This document shows, in pieces, positions 6,362 to 37,122 of a stretch of 64,000 bases of DNA. Each line of letters begins with the position of its first letter. The first letter of the stretch is position 1. Location: positions 1-64,000 of the forward strand of contig JAHDIN010000005.1 in NCBI GenBank assembly GCA_020630775.1. Direction: 5' to 3'. Under the pieces are notes generated by a model. It did no database searches, was not told the DNA's origin, and saw only the letters and a program-made list of their open reading frames with translations. The stretch comes from Saprospiraceae bacterium. GTDB taxonomy: Bacteria; Bacteroidota; Bacteroidia; Chitinophagales; Saprospiraceae. The translations under genes were made by a program, and so were the position numbers.

Positions 6362-9300
6362 TTATTTCACCTTTATAAAGTCTTCTAGATTCTGTTTGAT
6401 TAATTGATTTAGAATAGGAATCTCTTTCAACTTGATGTCCTCAAACTTATTCAGCTCAACGTCAATTAAAGCACTTAATTCATCTCTTACTTCATACATC
6501 TGGCTACTTGGAGCGCCATCTCCAATTTGAGCTAGTGAATTAAGATGAGCTAGTTTGTTAGTGAGTCGAATAGGGTAGTTGAGGGGGTCTTGTCTGCTTT
6601 TGTTTTTAGTTTGGTACAAAGTCTTTTCTACTTCTCCAAGTGCCTCGTGGATAGTTTTAATTTTTGAGTTAACCGTGTCAATGTCGTGATGCTCTTGGAA
6701 AGTCTTCATTTGTTTTTTTAAAGCTCTGATGTCTTTGATGCAGTTGTGAGCTTCTGATACTTTTTTATTTACACTTTCGACAAAATCAAATTGTGATTTA
6801 TAATCGTCTTTGCTAATCATGAGTCTAGGGTCACCTTTGATTGTAAAGTTTTGTGTTTGCGTCTTTCCGTTAATATTTAGCGAAACAGCATAATTGCCAG
6901 GCACTATAGAAGCGCCACTTAATGAACCCCACCATAGGACCATGCCTTCGAAGTCGTCGGCACCTTTAGCTTTCATATTCCATCTATGCTTATTAGATCC
7001 TGCTTTTAGATCTTTAAGCTTAAGACCTTTTTCTTTAGAGTATGTACTAAAAGATCTTAAGGTATCTCCATTTGCATTTAAATAAGTAATTGAAATAGAG
7101 TCTTCTTTTTCATCGTATTCATTCAGATAAAAATAGCTGGTTACACCACCAGGATGATTTGTGCCAGCACCTTTAGTGTTTGTTCTTTGTCCACCAGGGA
7201 TGCGATAACTATCGACGGGTTTAAATAGGAAGTCTTGTCGCCCTTTAAATTCTAAAGATTGTTTGAGAATATTTAAGTCGTCAATCATCCAGATGCCTCT
7301 TCCTTGCGTGGCAGCAATTAAATTATCATTTTTAATAACGAGGTCTGTGATTGGAACTATAGGCAGATTAAGTTGAAGACTACTCCAGCTTTGTCCACCG
7401 TTATTTGAAATGTACATGCCCGATTCTGTACCCGCGTATAAGACGCCTTCTTTTTTATGGTCTACTCTTATGGCTCTTGTGAAATGTTCAGCACCAATCC
7501 CAGATACTATTTTGGTCCAACTAGCGCCATAATTTTCTGTTTTGTAGATATAGGGTTTAAAGTCGCCTTCCTTGTATAATGTTCCTGCGATGTAACAAGT
7601 ACCTTCATTGTGATAATCTGGTTCAATACAATTAATCATCAACCATTTAGGCATGTTCGTTGGGGTGACATTTGTCCAGCTTTGACCACCATCTTTAGTG
7701 ACATGAATCAATCCATCATCGGACCCCACCCAAATTAAACCTTCTTTTAATGGTGATTCTGCTGCCGCGAATATAGTGCAGTAGTATTCTACACTTGTAT
7801 TGTCTTTGGTGATAGGGCCTCCTGACGATTTGAGTTTAGTCGTGTCATTACGCGTGAGATCCTCACTAATTGTTTCCCAACTTTGACCACCATTAGTAGA
7901 AACATGGAGGTGGTTTGAAGCTGCGTATAATCGCTTGGGGTTATGTCTTGAAAAGAAAATTGGAAAGTTCCATTGAAACCTATAGCGCATGCCTTCAGCG
8001 CCGTGCCCCATAGGATTGTCTGGCCAAACATTTATGGCTTTTCGGCTGCCTGTCTTATGATTGATTCTAGTTAGGTAGCCGCCATAGCTTCCGCCATATA
8101 CAACATCATTGTCTAAAGGATCAATAGCTATATGTGCAGATTCTCCACCAGCAGTAGGTTCCCAATGACTATCATTAATTTCCGAACTGGAAGTTCTGTG
8201 ATCAATTCTTATGGTACTATTATCTTGCTGAGCGGCATATATTCTATATGGAAAATGGTTGTCCGTAGTCACGCGATAAAACTGCGCTGTAGGCTGGTTG
8301 TAATATGTTGACCAAGTTTCTCCACCATCATAAGTGACTTGTGCGCCACCATCATCACCTATTATCATCCTGTTAGGATTCTCTGGGGCAATCCATAAAT
8401 CATGATGGTCTCCATGAGGCGCTCTGAAAGATTTGAATGTTTTGCCACCATCCGTTGATTTATGATAGGCGACATTCATTACATAAACGAGGTCTTCATC
8501 TTTTGGGTCAGCGTATATTCTTGTATAGTACCAAGCTCGTTGTCTTAGAGATCGACTTTCATTTAACTTGCGCCATGTTTTACCTGCATCATCTGATCTA
8601 TACACACCACCTTTCTCGTTTTCTATAATGGCCCAGACTCTATCAGAGTTGGCCGGAGAAACAGTAACTCCTGAAATACCCCATATGCCTTCTGGTAATC
8701 CTTTGTTGCTGGAGATGTTTTCCCAAGTTTCTCCACTATCGGTACTTTTCCAAAGCGCAGAGCCTTCTCCTCCACTTAATAGACTATAAGGTGTCCTTCT
8801 AATATTCCAAGTGGAAGCATATAAAATTCTTGGATTATTGGGGTCAATAATTAAATCAACTGCGCCTGATCTTTCGTTGGCAAATAAAACACGTTTCCAG
8901 TTTTTGCCTCCATCAATACTTTTATAAATCCCTCTTTCTTGGGAATCTGCGAATAAATTCCCCATAACCGCAGCATAGACAATATTATGGTCTTTTGGAT
9001 GAATTCTAATTCTTGATACATGTCGAGATTTTTCTAGACCGACTTGCTGCCAATTCTTTCCACCATCTTCAGTTTTCCAAATGCCATATCCAAATGATAC
9101 ATTTCCTCTGACCGTTTTTTCTCCTCCGCCAACATAGATCACATTATTGTCGGATTCTGAGATGGCAATCGATCCAATCGATCCTCCAAAATGACCATCC
9201 GATATATTTTCCCAAGATCGACCTCCATCTATTGTTTTCCAAACACCACCGCCGGTTGCACCAAAGTAAAATAGGTTGGGTTGACCAGGTACTCCCGTTA

Positions 9301-9436
9301 CCGCACAAGATCGACCTCCTCTATAAGGGCCAATTTCTCGCCATTCAATAGCATCGACGTATTCTGGATTAAATTGAGCAGTTAATTCTACTGATAAAGT
9401 AAGGGCAATTAATAAGATGAGCCAAAGTCTTTTCAT
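6362..9436 (-). CDS. sortilin/VPS10-like BNR (Asp-box) repeat exported protein
   Basis: A 1024-residue protein with a Sec signal peptide (MKRLWLILLIALTLSVELTAQ). The first 740 residues carry many Asp-box repeats of the form S.DGG.(S/T)W (TIDGGRSW, TEDGGKNW, SIDGGKNW, STDSGETW, SDDAGKTW, STNGGQSW and others), which build one or two large beta-propellers. Proteins of this layout are usually labelled 'glycosyl hydrolase' or sortilin-like in Bacteroidota, but no catalytic site can be named. Residues about 790-870 resemble a FlgD-like/Ig beta-sandwich, followed by a helical C-terminus. First gene of a two-gene unit with the arylsulfotransferase-like gene. Confidence 0.85.
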   Translation of the reverse strand: MKRLWLILLIALTLSVELTAQFNPEYVDAIEWREIGPYRGGRSCAVTGVPGQPNLFYFGATGGGVWKTIDGGRSWENISDGHFGGSIGSIAISESDNNVIYVGGGEKTVRGNVSFGYGIWKTEDGGKNWQQVGLEKSRHVSRIRIHPKDHNIVYAAVMGNLFADSQERGIYKSIDGGKNWKRVLFANERSGAVDLIIDPNNPRILYASTWNIRRTPYSLLSGGEGSALWKSTDSGETWENISSNKGLPEGIWGISGVTVSPANSDRVWAIIENEKGGVYRSDDAGKTWRKLNESRSLRQRAWYYTRIYADPKDEDLVYVMNVAYHKSTDGGKTFKSFRAPHGDHHDLWIAPENPNRMIIGDDGGAQVTYDGGETWSTYYNQPTAQFYRVTTDNHFPYRIYAAQQDNSTIRIDHRTSSSEINDSHWEPTAGGESAHIAIDPLDNDVVYGGSYGGYLTRINHKTGSRKAINVWPDNPMGHGAEGMRYRFQWNFPIFFSRHNPKRLYAASNHLHVSTNGGQSWETISEDLTRNDTTKLKSSGGPITKDNTSVEYYCTIFAAAESPLKEGLIWVGSDDGLIHVTKDGGQSWTNVTPTNMPKWLMINCIEPDYHNEGTCYIAGTLYKEGDFKPYIYKTENYGASWTKIVSGIGAEHFTRAIRVDHKKEGVLYAGTESGMYISNNGGQSWSSLQLNLPIVPITDLVIKNDNLIAATQGRGIWMIDDLNILKQSLEFKGRQDFLFKPVDSYRIPGGQRTNTKGAGTNHPGGVTSYFYLNEYDEKEDSISITYLNANGDTLRSFSTYSKEKGLKLKDLKAGSNKHRWNMKAKGADDFEGMVLWWGSLSGASIVPGNYAVSLNINGKTQTQNFTIKGDPRLMISKDDYKSQFDFVESVNKKVSEAHNCIKDIRALKKQMKTFQEHHDIDTVNSKIKTIHEALGEVEKTLYQTKNKSRQDPLNYPIRLTNKLAHLNSLAQIGDGAPSSQMYEVRDELSALIDVELNKFEDIKLKEIPILNQLIKQNLEDFIKVK

Positions 9437-9609
9437 ATCATTCTAATTTATATTGGTTAGCCACTTTTCATGGCATTTAAAAATAATCAAAATGTGATGA
9501 TCAGTACACCAAATATTGAATAGTATATAAACTAATGACCGATTATCAGTGAATTCAACCTTTAGTTTGATATCAATTTAAGGTTAAGGCCAGGCAACTT
9601 ATTTTTAGA

Positions 9610-9640
9610 GCATATTAGGTTTGTTAATGTCCTAATATGC
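9610..9640 (+). promoter_or_regulatory. -7 box TAGGTTTG inside a perfect 10-bp dyad
   Basis: A perfect inverted repeat (gcatattagg at 9610-9619, cctaatatgc at 9631-9640, 11-nt spacer) overlaps TAGGTTTG (9616-9623), an exact match to the Bacteroidota -7 consensus TAnnTTTG. No -33 TTTG stands at the usual distance. The dyad is placed like an operator; alternatively it forms a hairpin at the RNA 5' end. It would start transcripts near 9629, ahead of the kinase gene. Confidence 0.5.
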
Positions 9641-9807
9641 GTATTAGAAAAAATGCACAAGAAAATCATTATAATACCCCATAAATACCAATTGAAGATG
9701 CATTTCTAAGGGAATTCATGTCAGTCTTGAGATTGAGTTTAACGATGATTTCTCTGAACTCTAATACATTATGATTGCTGCCAGAAAAGACTGGTGGCAA
9801 TTTTTTT
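9629..9807 (+). ncRNA. candidate structured leader RNA or small RNA (about 180 nt)
   Basis: The 405-bp gap before the histidine kinase holds no convincing gene, but it has a promoter-like box (9616-9623), complementary arms and a strong terminator (9774-9807). gtattaga (9641-9648) pairs with tctaatac (9760-9767), and agaaaatcat (9660-9669) pairs with atgatttct (9745-9753) with one bulge. Together they fold the segment into one long hairpin ahead of the terminator. It may be a free small RNA of roughly 180 nt, or a 5' leader that controls read-through into the kinase gene at 9842. I do not recognise an Rfam family. Positions 9437-9609 show nothing clear. Confidence 0.45.
9774..9807 (+). terminator. 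rho-independent terminator or attenuator before the kinase gene
   Basis: An 11-bp stem (9774-9784 with 9791-9801, two G-T wobbles) with a 6-nt loop is followed directly by a run of T. It points toward the kinase gene, whose start is only 34 bp downstream. No gene upstream on this strand needs a terminator. Confidence 0.8.
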
Positions 9808-9841
9808 ATATTTAATCATTTGAAGCGCTTAATTTAGAAAG

Positions 9842-12766
9842 TTGAATGGTCTGAATAATATATTCCTAAATCTCTTTTTACTACTCCCTTTCATATCGGT
9901 ATCTCAAACAGCGTTTCCAAAAGTTAAGTTTGAAAAACAAATCAATACTTCTGAAGGCCTGGAGGATAGAATTTGTTACCATGTTAATAGGCAACCTAAC
10001 GGTGTTTATAATTTTATAACCAGTAAACTACAATTTCATACTGGGTCGCAATTTTTAGATGAGTCTTTAGATGTGTCTCTAATAAAAATTGTTTCTCCTC
10101 AATATTTCATGACAGAGAATTATGAGGTCTTCGATTATAGCCTTAATAAATTAAGTAAGTCTTTTGATCAGTCTCTGGAAATCGTTAATGGATTTAAAGT
10201 TCAAGAAGAGATTTACATATTGGCTCGAAGTAAAGATGATTATCAAGTATCAAAATGGGATATAGATAAATGGAGTAAAGTTTTTGAATTTAAGAACAAA
10301 GAAGAAATCACTTCAGTAGCCTATTCGGAAGATACATGGTATGGCTTGTCGAAATCATTTCACTTAATTGATTTAAGTAATGACACTTTAATCTTTGATG
10401 CAACACAATATCCTGATCGATCAATTCCTAACGAATATGTAATTCACGAGCATGAAGGTGCAATGTTTTTTTCATTTGAAAGTAAGTATGGTGTATTTCG
10501 TTTTGCTAATGATAGGATTGATTTAATTTCCGATAATTATATTATTGACGAGTTCTGTCAAGATAAAAAAGGGAATGCCCTTATGTTGTTAAAGGATGAG
10601 GTGCGCGTCATTGAAAAAGTTATTTTGATAGATAAGAATTGCGCATTGAATCCTTGGGATGCATTACTGAATGATCACACGAATATCATAACCTCTGTTT
10701 ATAGCGATAACTTTTTAGACGATATGCTCATTTCTACTTATAGCGGCATTCGCTATTTAGATTTCGAGAATTCGGAAGGGTTTATAAAATCTCATTTGTC
10801 GACAGAAAAGGATAATTGGGGTTTTGGTCGATTAGTGATTGACGTTGCTGCAAATAAATCAAATCAAATTGTTTGTATAGATGAAGTTGGAAGAATATCC
10901 ATAAACTCTGATGAGGGTTTTAAAACGATTTGGGAAGCGCCTTTTGATGAGCGTATGAAGCAGGTTTATTATGATGATCATAGTCGGCAGTTTAAAATCA
11001 TATCCTATGAATCAAATGATCAAGGAGGAATATATAGTTTAGATATTGATGATCGGAAGCTCATCAAAGAATTTCAAACGGGCTCCCTGTTTTCTATATA
11101 CCAAAGAAATGATACAACATATATAGGAGGGCCACATTCTAGGTTCTATCGTTTGCTTGATGGTAATTTAAAGCAATTTGATTTATCTAGTGTATTGAAT
11201 GGCATGGATATCAGATCAATATATAAGTCTGATATCTTTTTAGTAGGCACGCCCCAAGGATTATTCAATCTTCAAGGGCCAATAGATGATATCGAGCTCA
11301 TACAACTTTGGCCGTCGGTAATTACCGAAGAAGTAAGAACCATCGAAATGTATAACAATCATTTTTTTATTGGTACCTATGGTAATGGGCTCATAGTGCT
11401 AGATGAAAAATTAGATTTGGTGGCTAAGATTGATGAGGAATGTTGTTCGGTTAATAATTATATCTATGCAGTTGTTCAAGACGATTATGATAGGTATTGG
11501 TTGAGTACAAACGATGGTTTGTTTGTGCTAGATAAGGCATTAAAGTTTCAAGATAGAATTGGGTTAAGTTATGGGATATCAGATTTGGAGTTTAATACTC
11601 AAGCGGCTGTTAAAAGCAAAGATGGGGATTTATTTTTTGGAACGGTAAATGGACTGACTGAAATACAACCATCAAAATATTTGAAGTCTGACAATGTAGA
11701 TTTTATCGTTAAGGAAATACGAGGCTATTTAGGAAATGATGTTTATTATAGTCCAACCAACGGTAATGTTGGTGAGTTTAATTTTAAACCAGATTCAGTA
11801 AAATTCTTCTTGGTACCAAGTAGTTTTAAAGAGGTGAACTATCATTATGCTTCTAAGAATGATTTCAAAATCGAAGGGCATTTAGATTTTAAAATATACA
11901 AGAATCAAATAACCTTAACGGATCTTGATTTCGGCCAACTTAATTTAGCTATCAATGCGCATTCTGACCATTTTACGCTTTTGATAAAAAGAAATTATTG
12001 GAAGTACGTTTCAAACTTTTTGCTACTAAGTATAGTTGTTTTGCTTACCTCTTCAGTTGTCTATACTTATGTTAATAAAGTGGCCAAGCGAAAAGTAAAA
12101 GAAATAAGTCTTCAAAAAGAGATCTCGCAAATTAAACTTGAAGCCCTTCGGTCACAAATGAATCCCCATTTTATCTTTAATTCTTTAGGTGCGATCAGTT
12201 ATTATATTCAATCTAAGGAAACAAGGGTAGCTAATAATTATTTAACAAAATTCGCAAAATTAATAAGGGCGTTTTTGGAGTCTTCTAAAAATGAATACTT
12301 ATCTCTAGCCGAAGAAATTAAGTTATTGAATTATTATCTACAACTTGAGAAACTGCGATTTGAAGATGCTTTTGATTATGAAATAAATTGTGATGCTTCG
12401 ATAGATAAACTTCATGAAGTGATCCCTACAATGATGGTGCAGCCTTTTGTTGAAAATGCATTAATCCATGGTGTTAGTCATTTGAAAGATAGAAAGGGAA
12501 TTATTAAAATCAATTTTTTAAAAGAAACGGAAGATGTTTTAAAGATTGTAATTGATGATAATGGAGTAGGTCGAATGCGTGCAGCAGAAATCAAAAAATC
12601 ATCTTTGAAAAAACATCAATCTAGAGCCATGCAAATTATAGAGGATAGAATTAAAGTATCTGAATTTTCAGATGAAATGGGTTTGACCTTAGAGATTATA
12701 GATAAATATGATGGTGAAAGTCCAATGGGTACTCAGGTTGTTATAAACGTCATTAATAAAAATTAG
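9842..12766 (+). CDS. LytS-type sensor histidine kinase with periplasmic propeller
   Basis: A 974-residue protein. The start is TTG at 9842: a stop lies 12 bp upstream in frame, and the TTG start leaves an intact signal peptide (LNNIFLNLFLLLPFISVSQ). Residues about 25-700 are a periplasmic beta-propeller with Reg_prop-like blades (TYSGIRYLDF, TPQGLFNLQG, GTYGNGLIVLDE, LSTNDGLFVLD, FGTVNGLTEI). A membrane helix spans about 720-742. The His_kinase domain (LytS/YehU class) has MNPHFIFNSL with His776, the N-box PFVENALIHG and the G-box IDDNGVGRM near residue 905. It should phosphorylate the LytTR regulator encoded 3 bp downstream. The ligand is unknown. Confidence 0.92.
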   Translation: MNGLNNIFLNLFLLLPFISVSQTAFPKVKFEKQINTSEGLEDRICYHVNRQPNGVYNFITSKLQFHTGSQFLDESLDVSLIKIVSPQYFMTENYEVFDYSLNKLSKSFDQSLEIVNGFKVQEEIYILARSKDDYQVSKWDIDKWSKVFEFKNKEEITSVAYSEDTWYGLSKSFHLIDLSNDTLIFDATQYPDRSIPNEYVIHEHEGAMFFSFESKYGVFRFANDRIDLISDNYIIDEFCQDKKGNALMLLKDEVRVIEKVILIDKNCALNPWDALLNDHTNIITSVYSDNFLDDMLISTYSGIRYLDFENSEGFIKSHLSTEKDNWGFGRLVIDVAANKSNQIVCIDEVGRISINSDEGFKTIWEAPFDERMKQVYYDDHSRQFKIISYESNDQGGIYSLDIDDRKLIKEFQTGSLFSIYQRNDTTYIGGPHSRFYRLLDGNLKQFDLSSVLNGMDIRSIYKSDIFLVGTPQGLFNLQGPIDDIELIQLWPSVITEEVRTIEMYNNHFFIGTYGNGLIVLDEKLDLVAKIDEECCSVNNYIYAVVQDDYDRYWLSTNDGLFVLDKALKFQDRIGLSYGISDLEFNTQAAVKSKDGDLFFGTVNGLTEIQPSKYLKSDNVDFIVKEIRGYLGNDVYYSPTNGNVGEFNFKPDSVKFFLVPSSFKEVNYHYASKNDFKIEGHLDFKIYKNQITLTDLDFGQLNLAINAHSDHFTLLIKRNYWKYVSNFLLLSIVVLLTSSVVYTYVNKVAKRKVKEISLQKEISQIKLEALRSQMNPHFIFNSLGAISYYIQSKETRVANNYLTKFAKLIRAFLESSKNEYLSLAEEIKLLNYYLQLEKLRFEDAFDYEINCDASIDKLHEVIPTMMVQPFVENALIHGVSHLKDRKGIIKINFLKETEDVLKIVIDDNGVGRMRAAEIKKSSLKKHQSRAMQIIEDRIKVSEFSDEMGLTLEIIDKYDGESPMGTQVVINVINKN

Positions 12767-12769
12767 ATT

Positions 12770-13495
12770 ATGAAGGCATTAATAGTAGATGACGAAATGA
12801 AGTCAGCACAATACCTTCAAAATCTATTAGCTGATATTGCTCCAGAAATCAATGTTTTGACTTTAATTCATGATCCTCAAGAAGCATTAGCCTATTTAAA
12901 TACGCATTCTATTGATCTACTATTTTTGGATATAGAAATGCCAAATTTATCAGGCCTTGATTTATTAAGTCAAATATCAGATCCTAGCTTTGAAGTTATT
13001 TTCGTTACAGGATATGATCAATATGCGATTGAAGCGATCACATTTTGTGCGATAGGTTATATTCTTAAGCCTGTGGATGAGGATGATCTTAAAGCTGCAT
13101 TGGTAAATGCGCAAAGAAGATTGTCTAAGCAAAATAGCTTAACGAAAAACCAGATGTTAGTACAGAATATCTCAAATGTAAATAATAAAAAAATAGGTAT
13201 TCAGACCTCAGACGGTCTTGAGTTTATAGATCTAATAAATATTATCAGATGTGAAGCTTCACAAAGAGTAACTAAGGTCGTAGAAAAAAATCGTGTCTTA
13301 ATTAGTTCATATAATATTGGTCACTTTTCAAAGTTGCTAGAAGAGCATAATTTTTTTAAAGTACATAAGTCTCACTTAGTCAATATTTCTTATGTAAGCA
13401 AAGTCTCGCATGATGGTTTTGTTATTATGAATGATGACGCCCGCATACCTCTCGCAAGAAGACGTAAAACTGAATTTCTGTCATTGTTTATATAG
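12770..13495 (+). CDS. LytTR-family response regulator
   Basis: A 241-residue protein. The N-terminal receiver domain has the acidic pair D8-D9, phospho-acceptor D54 (LLFLDIEMPN), the T/F switch region (VTGYDQYAIEA) and the KPVDEDDL lysine. The C-terminal LytTR DNA-binding domain (about 135-241) shows IIRCEASQRVTKVV, FFKVHKSHLVNISYV and IPLARRRKTEF. It starts 3 bp after the kinase stop and forms a kinase-regulator pair. Targets are unknown; LytTR proteins bind pairs of short direct repeats. Confidence 0.94.
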   Translation: MKALIVDDEMKSAQYLQNLLADIAPEINVLTLIHDPQEALAYLNTHSIDLLFLDIEMPNLSGLDLLSQISDPSFEVIFVTGYDQYAIEAITFCAIGYILKPVDEDDLKAALVNAQRRLSKQNSLTKNQMLVQNISNVNNKKIGIQTSDGLEFIDLINIIRCEASQRVTKVVEKNRVLISSYNIGHFSKLLEEHNFFKVHKSHLVNISYVSKVSHDGFVIMNDDARIPLARRRKTEFLSLFI

Positions 13496-13531: not shown

Positions 13532-14443
13532 ATGGCGGATAAAACATTTTGGTTAGGCAGTGATAAATATCTATGTGATAGGCAGCTAGCGCAGGCCTTT
13601 CACATTTCAAGAACATTAGGCATGCCTTTACTTATCGAAGGCGAACCAGGAACAGGTAAGACTGAATTGCCCATACAATATGCAAGGGATTTAAATTTGG
13701 ATTTATTTGTTTATCCAGTGGGATCTAAAAGCAACGTTGAGCAGTTTGTCGCAAGATTTGATCATGTTAAGTATTTGCGTGATTCTCAAATAGAAATCTT
13801 AAATGCTCAAAGAGAGGAAAAGGGATTGGCATCAAAGCTGACGACGGGAGGTCGAGATCCTGAAAATTTATCTGATTATGTTGTCAATGGTCCGGCTGTT
13901 AATGCCTTTAAGTCTCCTAACTCCGTTTTATTGATAGATGAAATTGATAAAGCACCTAGAGAGTTTCCGAATGATTTATTGTATGCCTTAAGCCATCGTA
14001 AATTTATTCTACCTGAAAGTGGTGAAGAAATTGAAGTGAGTGAAGAAAATATGCCCGCTATTATCATTACTTCAAATCGAGAGCAAGAATTGCCAACGGC
14101 TTTTAAGGGGCGTTGTATTTATCATTACATACATTTTCCAGATGCGGATACCATGAAGGGTATAGTAGCTAAACATTTTCCGAAGGCAGAAACTAAAGTT
14201 GTAGATGTAGCTTTAGATGTCTTTTATCATCTACGTAATTTAGGCCTAGAGCGTGCACCAACTACAAGAGAGTTGCTGAATTGGTTGAAGTATGTCAAAA
14301 ACTTCACAACAGCTGAAGCCATCGAGAAAATCGAAAAATTAGAAGGCATAGGTACGCTGATAAAAACACAGTCAGATCTTGAAAAAATTCAGAAAAACAT
14401 CTTAGATCCTAGAGACTTTCAAAAAAGATCAACGCCTAATTAA
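13532..14443 (+). CDS. MoxR-like AAA+ ATPase
   Basis: A 303-residue AAA+ ATPase of the MoxR group, counted from ATG 13532. Walker A is GEPGTGKT (residues 37-44), Walker B is SVLLIDEIDKAP, sensor 1 lies in PAIIITSNRE and the arginine region in TAFKGRCIYHYIHFP. MoxR proteins act as chaperones that remodel or insert cofactors into partner complexes together with a VWA protein. The next gene, overlapping by one base (TAATG), encodes exactly such a VWA partner. A longer reading from TTG 13523 adds only three residues and overlaps a promoter-like box, so it is not preferred. Confidence 0.93.
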   Translation: MADKTFWLGSDKYLCDRQLAQAFHISRTLGMPLLIEGEPGTGKTELPIQYARDLNLDLFVYPVGSKSNVEQFVARFDHVKYLRDSQIEILNAQREEKGLASKLTTGGRDPENLSDYVVNGPAVNAFKSPNSVLLIDEIDKAPREFPNDLLYALSHRKFILPESGEEIEVSEENMPAIIITSNREQELPTAFKGRCIYHYIHFPDADTMKGIVAKHFPKAETKVVDVALDVFYHLRNLGLERAPTTRELLNWLKYVKNFTTAEAIEKIEKLEGIGTLIKTQSDLEKIQKNILDPRDFQKRSTPN

Positions 14444-15765
14444 TGTTTGAAACCTTACCAGAAAGATTCAGGACCTATGATTTGAAAGCCGATGTGCGGA
14501 CGCTCATGATATTACGTCAAGCCATTGATAAAGGTTTGGTTAAGACCTTAGGTGATGTGTATAATGTCTTGAAAGGAATAGTTGTTAAGGATCCAGAAGA
14601 TATGGGGCCTTTTACAAGAGCTTATTATGATTATTTCCTAAACATTGATATTGAAAACGGGGATACCTTAAGTGATGCTATTGCACGATCTGAAACCTTT
14701 AGAAAATGGAGAGATCACAAAATTGAGAAGAATGAAATATTCAAGACATTAAGTGACGAAGAACAGATAAATCATTTTTTAGATGATGTACATTTAAGCC
14801 AATATGATATAAAAGAGATCATTGCGGGCCGAGATATATTTGATAAAAACCCTGGTGATAAAACGGATGGTGATGAAGAAAGTATGGATGATATCCGCGA
14901 ACGCCTTTTGAATAAAATGGCAGATTATTCTGATATGTCACTTGAAGAGTTGCTGGATCGTTTAGATGAAATTGCTGAGCAGCAAAAGACAAAACACTCC
15001 GGAGGTGATCACTGGATAGGGACTGGAGGTATCTCACCTTATGGGCATGGTGGGGCAGCAAAAGATGGTATCAGGATTGGTGGTACAGGAGGTGGTAAGA
15101 TGGCTCGAATGGTTATGAATGACAGAAAATTTTTTCCTGTCGACATGGATTCAATAATTAATGATGATAATGTTGATGCTGCTTTGGCTTCTTTAAAAGG
15201 GGTTATTGAAGATTCAGCTCAGGAGGTTTTGGATGTCAATAACACGATTAAAAATGGCTTGAAAAGAGGCGGGTTGTTTTTGCCGGAAATTAAAAACTTA
15301 TCAGAACAAAAGCTTCAAGTCATATTGCTCATAGATAATGGGGGCTACTCTATGGATCCTTATGTCTATGTCATCAGAGAGCTTTTCAAGAAAATGAAAA
15401 CGCGTTTTGCGCATGATTTGGAGACTTATTATTTCCATAATACCATATATGATCGTGTCTATACGGATGTTAGAAGAAGACAGCCATTTATGATGGATCG
15501 TCTTTTGAGTAAGGACCCTAATTACAAAGTGTTTGTAATCGGAGACGCTTCCATGGCACCTTATGAACTCAATCGAATGAGTTTGAGGTCATATTTTCGA
15601 TTAAAAAAGAAGTTTAAAAAAGTAGCTTGGTTAAATCCTGAACCAGAAAAATATTGGCACCATACCTACACGCTTAATGTCATCAAGCAGATGATTGATA
15701 TGTATCCTCTTACCCCAAGAGGTATAGAAAAAGCAGTTTTAGAAATGAATAAGAAATCCAAATGA
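14443..15765 (+). CDS. VWA domain protein, partner of MoxR
   Basis: A 440-residue soluble protein. Residues about 1-160 are helical and acidic; a glycine-rich linker follows (SGGDHWIGTGGISPYGHGG, about 187-210). The C-terminal VWA fold (about 285-420) has LQVILLIDNGGYSMDP in place of the usual DxSxS MIDAS, so the metal site is altered: the first Asp is kept and the two serines are shifted or missing. VFVIGDASMAPYEL supplies the later Asp. It overlaps the MoxR gene by one base. Expected role: substrate-binding or adaptor partner of the MoxR ATPase. The client is not evident from the context. Confidence 0.85.
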   Translation: MFETLPERFRTYDLKADVRTLMILRQAIDKGLVKTLGDVYNVLKGIVVKDPEDMGPFTRAYYDYFLNIDIENGDTLSDAIARSETFRKWRDHKIEKNEIFKTLSDEEQINHFLDDVHLSQYDIKEIIAGRDIFDKNPGDKTDGDEESMDDIRERLLNKMADYSDMSLEELLDRLDEIAEQQKTKHSGGDHWIGTGGISPYGHGGAAKDGIRIGGTGGGKMARMVMNDRKFFPVDMDSIINDDNVDAALASLKGVIEDSAQEVLDVNNTIKNGLKRGGLFLPEIKNLSEQKLQVILLIDNGGYSMDPYVYVIRELFKKMKTRFAHDLETYYFHNTIYDRVYTDVRRRQPFMMDRLLSKDPNYKVFVIGDASMAPYELNRMSLRSYFRLKKKFKKVAWLNPEPEKYWHHTYTLNVIKQMIDMYPLTPRGIEKAVLEMNKKSK

Positions 15766-15790
15766 TCATTTTCTTGGTATATAATACTAA

Positions 15791-16393
15791 ATGATCAAAA
15801 TGAAATACTTATTTATCTTACTATTAGCGCTTTGTTTAGCATCGTGTACGGCCCAAAAATCTTCAATTTTTATTCCAGCAAATCAAACTGTTGAAATTGA
15901 CTACATTGACATTGATTATTATCAAATCACCCTTAAAAACAAAGGAATCAAAGATATTTCGATTGCTGTAAATTCTCGAAGTAGTAATGAGCAGGTAAAA
16001 GGATTTGGAATGGGTGATAGAGCAAAAGTCGAAGTATATGTAGAGGCTGAGAACAAATTATTAGTTACCAATAATTCTGACCAAGGTGGTATGTTGTCTT
16101 ATTGGATTGCTGAAAAGAATAGGCTAGTTGAAGAAAGAAGGGGAGAGTATGTAAGTTTTACCTTAAGGAATACTTCCGCAAAATCTATCCCACTTATCAT
16201 ACCTACAGTGATGAATCCCAATCTATCGCCCTTTTCAAAAAGTGGTGTAGACTTAAAAATTGGACAAGAAATATTCTTCAAAGCAAAAGGTAAGCGACAT
16301 GTATTATTAATCGTGGATAGTACTATTAATAATGGCGATGAGCTTGATGTAGCTAAATTATTGAAGAAACGAAAGAAAGAATTGGGCTTGTAA
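15791..16393 (+). CDS. hypothetical lipoprotein
   Basis: A 200-residue protein with a strong lipobox (FILLLALCLASC). ATG 15800 (MKYLFILL...) is an alternative start that gives the more usual short n-region. The rest is predominantly beta-strand (VEIDYIDIDYYQITLKNKG, VSFTLRNTSAKSIPLIIPTV), with a lysine-rich end. No known family was recognised. It lies 25 bp after the VWA gene on the same strand and just ahead of a strong terminator, so it may be the last gene of the MoxR-VWA unit. Confidence 0.7.
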   Translation: MIKMKYLFILLLALCLASCTAQKSSIFIPANQTVEIDYIDIDYYQITLKNKGIKDISIAVNSRSSNEQVKGFGMGDRAKVEVYVEAENKLLVTNNSDQGGMLSYWIAEKNRLVEERRGEYVSFTLRNTSAKSIPLIIPTVMNPNLSPFSKSGVDLKIGQEIFFKAKGKRHVLLIVDSTINNGDELDVAKLLKKRKKELGL

Positions 16394-16426
16394 TGCCAAT
16401 GAAACAGTCCTTATTATTGGATAAAT

Positions 16427-16470
16427 AATCCCCAAAAGACCAGTGTTTCTGGCCATTTTGGGGATTTTTT
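16427..16470 (+). terminator. strong rho-independent terminator
   Basis: A perfect 11-bp outer stem (aatccccaaaa at 16427-16437 with ttttggggatt at 16456-16466), an inner ccag/ctgg stem and a T-run ending at 16470. It ends the transcript of the MoxR-VWA-lipoprotein genes. Confidence 0.92.
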
Positions 16471-16594
16471 GATTTTAAAGAAATCAGAAAAACTAAAGGG
16501 GCTTACCAAAAACGGTATGTTTCTGCCAAAAAACTAAAACCTCCAATTTTCGGCGCTCTTCAGGTGATATTTGAAGTAATATAATATCTAAGAG

Positions 16595-19366
16595 ATGAAA
16601 ACGAACAATTTATTTCAAGAACTAAAAAGATTAATCCCAACAATAACTTTATGCTTTTGCATGCTTTCAATTGGACTTACCCAGGAGATATGCGATAATA
16701 GAATAGACGATGATGGAGATGGATTAATTGATTGTATGGATCCAGACTGTGATAACTACACAGATTGCTGGGAATGTATTGCTGAATTTTATCAAGTCCA
16801 TAGCAATTCAACTTTAGTTGCTTTGGATCCAGTATATGGAACTTATGAAGTTTTAGCAACAATATCAGGCGCAGAACAAATTAATGGTCTTCAGTTTAAC
16901 CACTTGGATGGACATGTTTATGCACCATGTATTATAAATGGTCAACACAGATTAGGGATGTTATCTCCAAGTGGAGTTGTAACAGACATGGGCTTAGACC
17001 TGCCTGGAAATGGAATATTTTATGTAGGGGCGATAGATGCTAATGGGGTGTTTTACTTAGCAAATGGCTCTGGATTGTTTAAAGTCGATCTAATGAAATC
17101 TCCGCTGGAGGTTGTGGATACTGGGGTGAGGAATTTGAGTGTAGCGGATTTTTCATTGGATATTACAAGAGCTTTATTTTATGGAATTACAAGTTCTTCA
17201 AAATTAAGAGTGTATGATCCTGCTACAAATCAATTAAGTACCTACGATCTTGCTGGTTCAATAAATAACGAAAGTGGTGCATTTGGTGCAGCATGGTCTT
17301 GTGTTGATGGTTCTTTTTATGCTTACAATAATTCTTCAGGTAAAATATATTCTGTTGATGTTAATGATTTAACTGCTACAGAAGTACTAAATGCAACAGG
17401 TAATCTTTCAATAAATGATGGTTTTAATTGTGTATTAGCACCACCACCATTTGAAAGTAATTGTAATAATGGGATCGATGACGATGGAGATGGTTTAGTA
17501 GATTGTGATGATCCAGATTGTGATAAATCAAATCAGTGTACAGTAGAAATTTGTGATAATGGTATAGATGATGATGGCGATGGATGGGCAGATTGCAGTG
17601 ATTCAGAATGTTATGCACTTCAGATATGTATTGAGATCTGTGATAATGGCATTGATGATAATGGTAACGGTTTAGTTGATGGTGACGACCCTCAGTGTAC
17701 AACAAGTTCTGGTGTTCGAGGTGGACTTGAGTCAAATAGAAGATTAGCAGATAAAATTACACAGAGAAATTTTAATATCGTAAAATCACCTACTGCAGAG
17801 TTTCAAATGAAATTGAAAGGTGAGATTCCTTTTCAAGGCGCACATTTCAAAAATAACTTCGATATAGGATCATTTATTCCTGTAGATGCTATCGGTAACT
17901 ATACTTCAGAAAGTTCTCCTAATGATTTGATCGGTATAACTAATGCTATTGAAGTAACAAGTGCGGATTATTTTTATGATCAACAAAGACTTGGTTCTAT
18001 ACTAGCTATTAAAAGTGAGAATGGCGTTTATGAGCACACAAAGTATATCTGCGATAGATTAGATGGGGCGAGACTATTAGATATTTCTTACTTGAATGTT
18101 TTTGGAGGTACTTATGTAGCGTATGAGCTGATGAACAAATATGGGCAGGTGGAATACTCTGTAAGTTTTGCTGGGTACTACAAAGAAGAAGTCAATGCGA
18201 TGTATGTTGAAAGTCATTGGAATATTCATAAGTATGCAGATGAAGATGTTTTTTACAACTTCCAAGTATGGGCTAATTCTTACCAAAACCTCATTGAATT
18301 AATGCAATCTCTGTTAGAGAAGATGCATATGAAAGTAGGAGTGAAAGGCCAGATCAGTTCTTACTATCCAAAAGTATTTATCCAACAAGCGGATTATGTA
18401 AATGGAGCTATTAGATTAGTCATCAAAAATAAGGCGAGAACAAAGCAGCTGAATATTCAGGCGCATTCAAGAGACTCTGAAGTAAGCACAGTAGATAAGT
18501 GGACTGTATCTATGCCATTAGAAGGTCGTGCTGAAGAGATTATATATGTTGAGACAGATGGGATATATGATGTAGGTATGTCTATCCAATGTGAAGAAAG
18601 TCCAGCTGACGAAATATTTTTAGCGGATGGTGCATGGGGTATCTCAAATGATAATCCAAATGCCCTTATTCATAATTTCGAGATAGAGCAAAGTCAAGGT
18701 AGTGCATGCACTGACTGCAGACAAATTGAAAGGAATATTCATGTGGAAGCAGATGTAAAAGACTACTTAAATATTTACAGATCTTTGAATGCCAAATTCG
18801 TAGCAGAAAACTTAAATGCATTTTCATCTCTAGAATTTGAAGCACAAGGAAATGGTTTGTTAGAAGTATGTTTAGTGAAATCATCAATTACAGACTGGAG
18901 TGAGCAGCATAAAGCTTATGTTGAGCTCAATGAAGATGGAGAGACTGTCGAGTTGAGTTGGTTGGATTTTGTTGCAGGTCAAAAATCTTTAGACAATTTA
19001 AGTGATATTAACATGCTTGTCTTTACATTAATTGGAGAAGGTGGTGTGACTTCAGAGCGAGTACTGGATTTAAGCGATGTAAGATTCGTGAATAATACAA
19101 TAACAAGTTCAACAGAAGCTATTTACAGTTCTGAATTCGAAGTGTCGCCAAATCCATTCAGTTCAGAATTAAATCTGACCTTACCAGATTCAAAGGAAGT
19201 ATCAGTTGTTATCTATGATCAATTAGGCAAAGAGATTTATACATTGTCCAATATCAATAATGACCGTGTTGCAATAGATACACGTCAATGGGTGCCAGGG
19301 CTTTATTTCGCTGCTATCTATGATCAAAAAGGTCACAAACAGACAAAGAAAATTATTAAAAAATAA
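16595..19366 (+). CDS. T9SS-sorted secreted protein with IDDDGDG repeats and a propeller
   Basis: A 923-residue protein with a long signal peptide (core ITLCFCMLSIGLT, about residues 16-29). Four cysteine/acid repeats of the type NGIDDDGDGLVDCDDPDC occur: one near residue 31 and three near 290-370; the last is degenerate and lost a Cys. Such repeats are calcium-binding by composition. Residues about 60-285 form a propeller-like region (GTYEVLATISGAEQINGLQF, DGHVYAP). Residues 370-840 are unassigned beta-rich sequence. The end is a type A T9SS sorting domain (VSPNPFSSELNLTLP to TKKIIKK). It should be exported across the outer membrane and anchored or released. Confidence 0.85.
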   Translation: MKTNNLFQELKRLIPTITLCFCMLSIGLTQEICDNRIDDDGDGLIDCMDPDCDNYTDCWECIAEFYQVHSNSTLVALDPVYGTYEVLATISGAEQINGLQFNHLDGHVYAPCIINGQHRLGMLSPSGVVTDMGLDLPGNGIFYVGAIDANGVFYLANGSGLFKVDLMKSPLEVVDTGVRNLSVADFSLDITRALFYGITSSSKLRVYDPATNQLSTYDLAGSINNESGAFGAAWSCVDGSFYAYNNSSGKIYSVDVNDLTATEVLNATGNLSINDGFNCVLAPPPFESNCNNGIDDDGDGLVDCDDPDCDKSNQCTVEICDNGIDDDGDGWADCSDSECYALQICIEICDNGIDDNGNGLVDGDDPQCTTSSGVRGGLESNRRLADKITQRNFNIVKSPTAEFQMKLKGEIPFQGAHFKNNFDIGSFIPVDAIGNYTSESSPNDLIGITNAIEVTSADYFYDQQRLGSILAIKSENGVYEHTKYICDRLDGARLLDISYLNVFGGTYVAYELMNKYGQVEYSVSFAGYYKEEVNAMYVESHWNIHKYADEDVFYNFQVWANSYQNLIELMQSLLEKMHMKVGVKGQISSYYPKVFIQQADYVNGAIRLVIKNKARTKQLNIQAHSRDSEVSTVDKWTVSMPLEGRAEEIIYVETDGIYDVGMSIQCEESPADEIFLADGAWGISNDNPNALIHNFEIEQSQGSACTDCRQIERNIHVEADVKDYLNIYRSLNAKFVAENLNAFSSLEFEAQGNGLLEVCLVKSSITDWSEQHKAYVELNEDGETVELSWLDFVAGQKSLDNLSDINMLVFTLIGEGGVTSERVLDLSDVRFVNNTITSSTEAIYSSEFEVSPNPFSSELNLTLPDSKEVSVVIYDQLGKEIYTLSNINNDRVAIDTRQWVPGLYFAAIYDQKGHKQTKKIIKK

Positions 19367-37082: not shown

Positions 37083-37122
37083 AAAAAACAGAAAAGGCTT
37101 GTCGGGTGTCGACAAGCCTTTT
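37083..37122 (-). terminator. trp attenuator terminator hairpin
   Basis: A perfect 13-bp stem (37092-37104 with 37110-37122) with a 5-nt loop. On the minus strand it is followed after three bases by six T (37088-37083), and trpE begins 13 bp later. Together with the Trp-rich leader peptide upstream, this is the terminator of a transcription attenuator. It could also end read-through from the AsmA-like gene. Confidence 0.88.

Follow-up and report, generated by a model that had tools for sequence, protein, structure and literature searches.

Between a Sortilin/Vps10 beta-propeller gene and the divergent gene of a LytS-type histidine kinase, the DNA analysed here (a stretch of 64,000 nucleotides, hereafter the window) contains a strong intrinsic terminator oriented toward the kinase gene. 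Which transcript ends at this terminator, and what does its position imply for expression of the kinase and of the response regulator encoded after it? The genes and the terminator are as follows.

6362-9436, minus strand: Sortilin/Vps10 beta-propeller gene, the divergent upstream neighbour
9437-9841: intergenic gap between the beta-propeller gene and the kinase gene
9773-9807, plus strand: intrinsic terminator, stem at 9773-9802 followed by a T run to 9807 (hairpin of -15.8 kcal/mol)
9842-12766, plus strand: propeller LytS-type histidine kinase with a TTG start (PF07494, PF06580)
12770-13495, plus strand: response regulator with a LytTR domain (PF00072, PF04397)

The terminator stem consists of 12 pairs, and 34 nt separate the end of the T run from the TTG at 9842, the very distance given by the first-pass annotation of this DNA. 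That annotation had called the terminator excellent and had seen no upstream gene to account for it. We agree on both points: one terminator was found in 600 bp against a mean of 0.2 in shuffled sequences, and the upstream neighbour lies on the minus strand, transcribed away from it. As a baseline, sense terminators at or below -12 were present in 2 of 47 divergent gaps, the window's included, in 292 kb of the same genome. The sole other strong one in a divergent gap of this sampled genome (L098, G000:C10; -15.6) is located 132 nt ahead of a gene for a 904-residue protein and has no Rfam match.

We compared the window with loci carrying related kinases. Only G002 (38% identity, with conserved neighbours) and G279 (36%) yielded full-length orthologs of the kinase; searches of 397 family and 396 order genomes with a profile built from the three sequences gained only more distant relatives. 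The upstream neighbour is divergent in all three loci, and all three carry a strong terminator in the same position, 36 nt ahead of the kinase gene in G002 (-22.2) and 56 nt ahead of it in G279 (-14.9), the terminators themselves being unrelated in sequence. As a control, we fetched 44 stretches with other propeller-LytS kinases and obtained the kinase ORF in 41 of them. None of the 16 paralogs with a divergent neighbour had a sense terminator at or below -8, as compared with three of the three orthologs (p = 0.001). The terminator thus persists in the orthologs despite the turnover of its sequence, and a BLAST comparison of the window leader with that of G002 remained at chance level. As to more distant relatives, G069, in which the upstream gene is co-directional, has an operator of the kind described below, a promoter box 33 bp past it and a terminator that touches the ATG (-16.4), and no terminator was seen in G115, whose neighbour is divergent. 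The terminator of G206 is weak (-10.4). The G002 leader (L088; kinase at 13698-16664) contains two tandem terminators, the first of which has a 3′ arm complementary to an early GGAGAAGAG in the same leader.

The elements that could drive a transcript into the terminator are the following, together with a box located after it.

9538-9566, plus strand: predicted LytTR response-regulator operator, ACCGATTAT-N11-ACCTTTAGT, the best site in the window by position weight matrix (PWM)
9600-9607, plus strand: predicted -7 box TATTTTTA, a 5/6 match 33 bp past the operator, giving a start near 9613
9616-9623, plus strand: rival -7 box TAGGTTTG, an exact 6/6 match to a motif that occurs at chance frequency in the window
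9807-9814: possible promoter box of the kinase gene's own, TATATTTA, after the terminator, a 5/6 match read by eye

Direct repeats of the ACCG type are common to several kinase-operon gaps. The exact pattern ACCGNTNNT-N12-ACCGNTNNT was found in 8 of 109 loci, which represent four distinct places, all of them upstream of kinase or regulator genes. From these four kinase operons (G279, G232, G003 and G069), none of which belongs to the genome of the window, we built the LytTR direct-repeat PWM. The site at 9538-9566 scored 18.2, the runner-up in the window 15.7, and no other site across 292 kb of this genome (G000) reached 16.5. Of its two half-sites the second is weak, and they are separated by 11 rather than 12 nt; the strict operator pattern is absent from G000. 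The LytTR regulator encoded at 12770-13495 is presumably the owner of this operator.

A -7-like box (at least 5/6) starts 32-34 bp past the operator in six of eight operator regions and is missing at that distance in two (G003 and G279b). With a correction for bin choice, six in eight would arise by chance with a probability of about 1e-6, based on a per-site rate calculated by hand. The passages on LytTR-autoregulated operons cited here from PMC6193735 describe repeats 11-13 bp apart that mostly lie 10 bp ahead of the -35 box, a repeat-to-box spacing of 10+6+17 bp, and, in Bacteroides, a spacing of 34 bp with the layout 11 bp + TGTA + 19 bp + TATCTTTG. The operator at 9538-9566, combined with this published geometry, points to 9600-9607 as the promoter box and to a start near 9613. 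Such a start would place the fourth base of each repeat at -72 and -52, respectively; in the portion of PMC10602386 that treats the RgaR-activated spoZ sRNA promoter, the matching mutations are at G-72 and G-51.

The -7 motif of Bacteroidota-type promoters has the consensus TAnnTTTG; the type of promoter, together with the gene content, points to a host among the Bacteroidota. The first-pass annotation had chosen the box at 9616, with a start at 9629. The exact match does exist inside the region, but 74 occurrences of the motif were counted in the window where 81 were expected; because it occurs at chance frequency, the match carries no weight alone, and it is less consistent with the operator spacing than the box at 9600-9607. 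The LytTR-linked box is therefore the more likely promoter, and the start assigned earlier is probably off by about 16 bp. The RNA expected from the revised start has these features.

9613-9807, plus strand: inferred short transcript of about 195 nt, from operator, box and terminator
9610-9640, plus strand: perfect 10-bp dyad, arms at 9610-9619 and 9631-9640 matching exactly
9718-9774, plus strand: possible short ORF MSVLRLSLTMISLNSNTL, with its stop 2 nt into the terminator stem

The end of the proposed transcript unit is kept, and its expected length grows from about 180 to about 195 nt. The dyad, also reported before, is one of seven in the window with arms of at least 10 and loops of 3-30 nt. 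With a start at 9613 it would be mostly transcribed and would fold as a 5′ hairpin; it is probably such a hairpin, the alternative being a repressor operator. The long-range arms GUAUUAGA (9641-9648) and UCUAAUAC (9760-9767) do pair in the minimum free energy fold but are not significant, and a special structure of the RNA was not confirmed: without its terminator the fold was at chance level (z = -0.82; 47 of 200 shuffles folded equally well), and with it the z-score was -2.1 from 9625 and -2.4 from 9613. The transcript stretch contains only ORFs of at most 20 codons. The Rfam search that had been suggested, 6S RNA included, gave no family matching the window at the gathering threshold; the relaxed threshold returned chance-level matches only, mostly to snoRNAs and none resembling 6S. 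A 6S-Flavo search of 30 relatives produced zero matches, in the control genomes too, and is therefore uninformative.

To see how often the arrangement recurs, we searched 398 family genomes for the unit operator + N31-35 + TANNTTTG, with the reversed pattern as a control. The search gave 21 matches in 17 genomes against three for the control; three matches were inside genes and 18 were intergenic, and 10 of these 18 adjoin a kinase or regulator gene (labels assigned from sequence motifs by eye, with Pfam for two genes). Half of the intergenic units (9/18) have a terminator before any ORF of at least 60 residues on that strand, at or below -13 in seven cases, and the other half have none before the next gene. 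The frequency of strong terminators, 7/18 in the units against 1/46 in divergent gaps, differs with p = 3e-4, in sets that are imperfectly matched, as their upstream neighbours differ. The bare operator without a box gave 17 matches against 12 for the control (8 genomes), and relaxing the box to TANNTT gave 38 against 18 (219 genomes), so that about half of the latter are noise; we examined 30 of the 38.

Some of the units lie ahead of a kinase or regulator gene, in G340, G317, G099 and G240. No Rfam family covers any of the 16 unit loci tested. As a candidate for a conserved pairing region, only the hexamer ACCCCA emerged: four of eight leaders ahead of kinase or regulator genes have it, and an equally extreme result came from 3 of 200 shuffle sets. 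The window and G002 have it unpaired, G069 and G340 not clearly so, and as a shared element it is suggestive only. In G236 (L142/L188, contig C2), an operator, an exact -7 box and a terminator are found 14 bp past a membrane-like ORF of 451 residues that is not evidently a regulator.

How would such a unit serve the operon behind it? We consider it fairly probable, judging from the arrangement of the sites, that a promoter activated by the LytTR regulator yields a transcript that mostly ends before the kinase gene, with read-through feeding the operon. The phosphorylated regulator would bind at 9538-9566 and activate the promoter with the -7 box at 9600-9607; most transcripts would stop at 9773-9807, giving an RNA of about 195 nt, and a fraction would continue into the kinase and regulator genes, so that positive autoregulation would be damped by attenuation. 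The extent of read-through might be set by a fixed leak, by translation of the short leader ORF or by a protein factor, and the short RNA may act itself. The first-pass description, 'a small RNA or attenuator-like leader', was in the right field, and the terminator position is kept in both other orthologs; no riboswitch-like sequence conservation is seen. Operator, box spacing, terminator and the persistence of the terminator among orthologs are results of computation; from them we infer that the regulator binds and activates, that the RNA is made, that part of it reads through, and whatever the short RNA may do.

The strongest competing explanation, to which we give roughly a one-in-four standing, holds that the short RNA is the product, an sRNA acting in trans on the regulator's command, and that the operon is served mainly by another promoter. 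It gains from the units that stand alone after LytTR regulator genes, in G279 and G030 (both before a convergent lipA), G106, G151 and G308, with no gene on the strand before the terminator, and from the LytTR-activated sRNAs of Firmicutes described in the part of PMC10602386 drawn on here. In one genus, moreover, such RNAs share a conserved 13-nt element, CACCACGATAGCC, just ahead of the terminator. The motif was first seen in two unit RNAs and then sought in 21 genomes of the genus, which gave 11 matches in 8 genomes against one for the control; five were inside genes, and the six intergenic ones all share CACCACGATAGCC just ahead of a terminator. Four of these six directly follow a regulator gene, in one the place of the regulator falls beyond the sequence that was fetched, and one has no regulator. 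Against a trans-acting role, the window RNA has no long element in common with the other units, DNA homology to its leader among 60 relatives is confined to 47 bp within a G002 gene on another contig, and in G069, where the T run touches the kinase ATG, read-through seems to be needed.

In G279 (L119/L129, contig C13) and G030 (L130, contig C38), a LytTR operator and an exact -7 box lie between the regulator gene and the convergent lipA, named by eye, followed by about 65-105 nt of noncoding sequence and then a terminator. The copies of the 13-nt element are in L148, L151, L153, L154, L155 and L157 (near position 1500 in match orientation, 454 in L155) and make up a candidate sRNA family, most members of which come immediately after a LytTR regulator gene and its operator; L157 is the extra copy without a regulator.

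Attenuation by a ribosome, in which translation of the leader ORF as far as its stop codon at the terminator base would keep the hairpin from forming and allow the polymerase to pass, is an unlikely alternative. The ORF of the window ends 2 nt into the stem, and a 22-codon ORF in the G279 leader ends 1 nt into its stem; however, a placement like that in the window was matched in 6-11% of shuffles, depending on the length cut-off, and that in G279 has a chance of 2-3% (for that placement, ATG starts). Moreover, the G002 leader has no ATG-started equivalent, and the peptides of the window and G279 are dissimilar, with no telling codon run. A stray strong hairpin and T run in an ordinary intergenic gap would fit the occurrence of such hairpins in 2 of 47 divergent gaps, the window's among them, but chance is an improbable explanation, as both other orthologs and G069 have terminators of unrelated sequence and the one in the window is linked to an operator whose distance to the box is conserved. 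A folding switch with an antiterminator, whether a riboswitch or protein-dependent, as a terminator in a 5′ leader might suggest, is the most improbable alternative by our estimate, because no arm of the four terminators has an upstream complement beyond those in shuffles; comparison of the relatives' leaders also revealed no conserved aptamer- or riboswitch-like sequence, and Rfam gave no match.

Beyond read-through attenuation at the window itself, a wider reading can be offered tentatively, with odds well short of even: LytS/LytTR systems of this family may commonly own terminated short RNAs driven by the response regulator, a trans-acting output arm that evolves fast, is unrelated between genera and would be a Bacteroidota counterpart of AgrA-RNAIII. 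Such RNAs would lie either before the operon (the window, G002, G279, G069, G340, G099, G240 and G317) or after the regulator gene (G279, G030, G106, G151, G308 and others).

Comparison with known systems, each as represented in the cited passages, suggests that the unit functions in the manner of a LytTR-autoregulated promoter whose leader is attenuated, and also in that of regulator-driven sRNA genes; by sequence it is a member of none of them. The LytTR autoregulatory operons (LRS; HdrRM/BrsRM of Streptococcus mutans, and Bacteroides; PMC6193735) have ACC-type direct repeats of 9 bp with 11-13 bp between them and a distance of about 33 bp between the repeat end and the -10/-7 box, and their operator precedes the operon of the regulator itself. 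The window likewise has two 9-bp repeats (spacer 11, the second weak) and 33 bp to TATTTTTA, but with a histidine kinase/response regulator pair and with a terminator between promoter and operon. In RNAIII (AgrA), VR-RNA (VirR) and SpoZ (RgaR), repeats of the LytTR type at about -72/-51 drive a short noncoding RNA (PMC10602386), and the window has the same order of operator, promoter and terminator around a noncoding stretch. In contrast to these Firmicutes cases, it has Bacteroidota-type promoters, an RNA directly ahead of the kinase gene and no sequence relation, and the unit is known here as a prediction from DNA. The gene order resembles that of glmY-qseEGF in Proteus mirabilis (PMC8745638), where an sRNA gene with the regulator's sites lies directly upstream of, and is co-transcribed with, a two-component operon; that system has another type of regulator, sigma54 promoter elements and an unrelated RNA. 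The premature-terminator attenuators of Naville and Gautheret (PMC2965389) also keep the terminator position ahead of one gene family while the sequence turns over; unlike in those, no alternative fold was found in the window unit.

The literature we searched, with most subscription papers outside its scope, contained no report of a LytTR-controlled short RNA in Bacteroidota. If the proposal is true, the signature of direct repeats, 33 bp, a -7 box and a terminator before any gene would serve to locate RNAs tied to regulators in a large group that is rich in LytS/LytTR pairs and in which little RNA regulation is known, would predict the start, the end and the controlling regulator of each RNA, and would also provide a likely binding motif for these LytTR regulators.

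Two other repeats in the window were noted. A 13-bp perfect inverted repeat with a loop of 5 nt (37092-37122) immediately precedes a run of trp-like genes, labelled by eye, on the minus strand; it either terminates the gene before the run or is a trp attenuator. In an intergenic gap, two 17-bp arms of a perfect inverted repeat enclose a loop of 24 nt (1096-1153).
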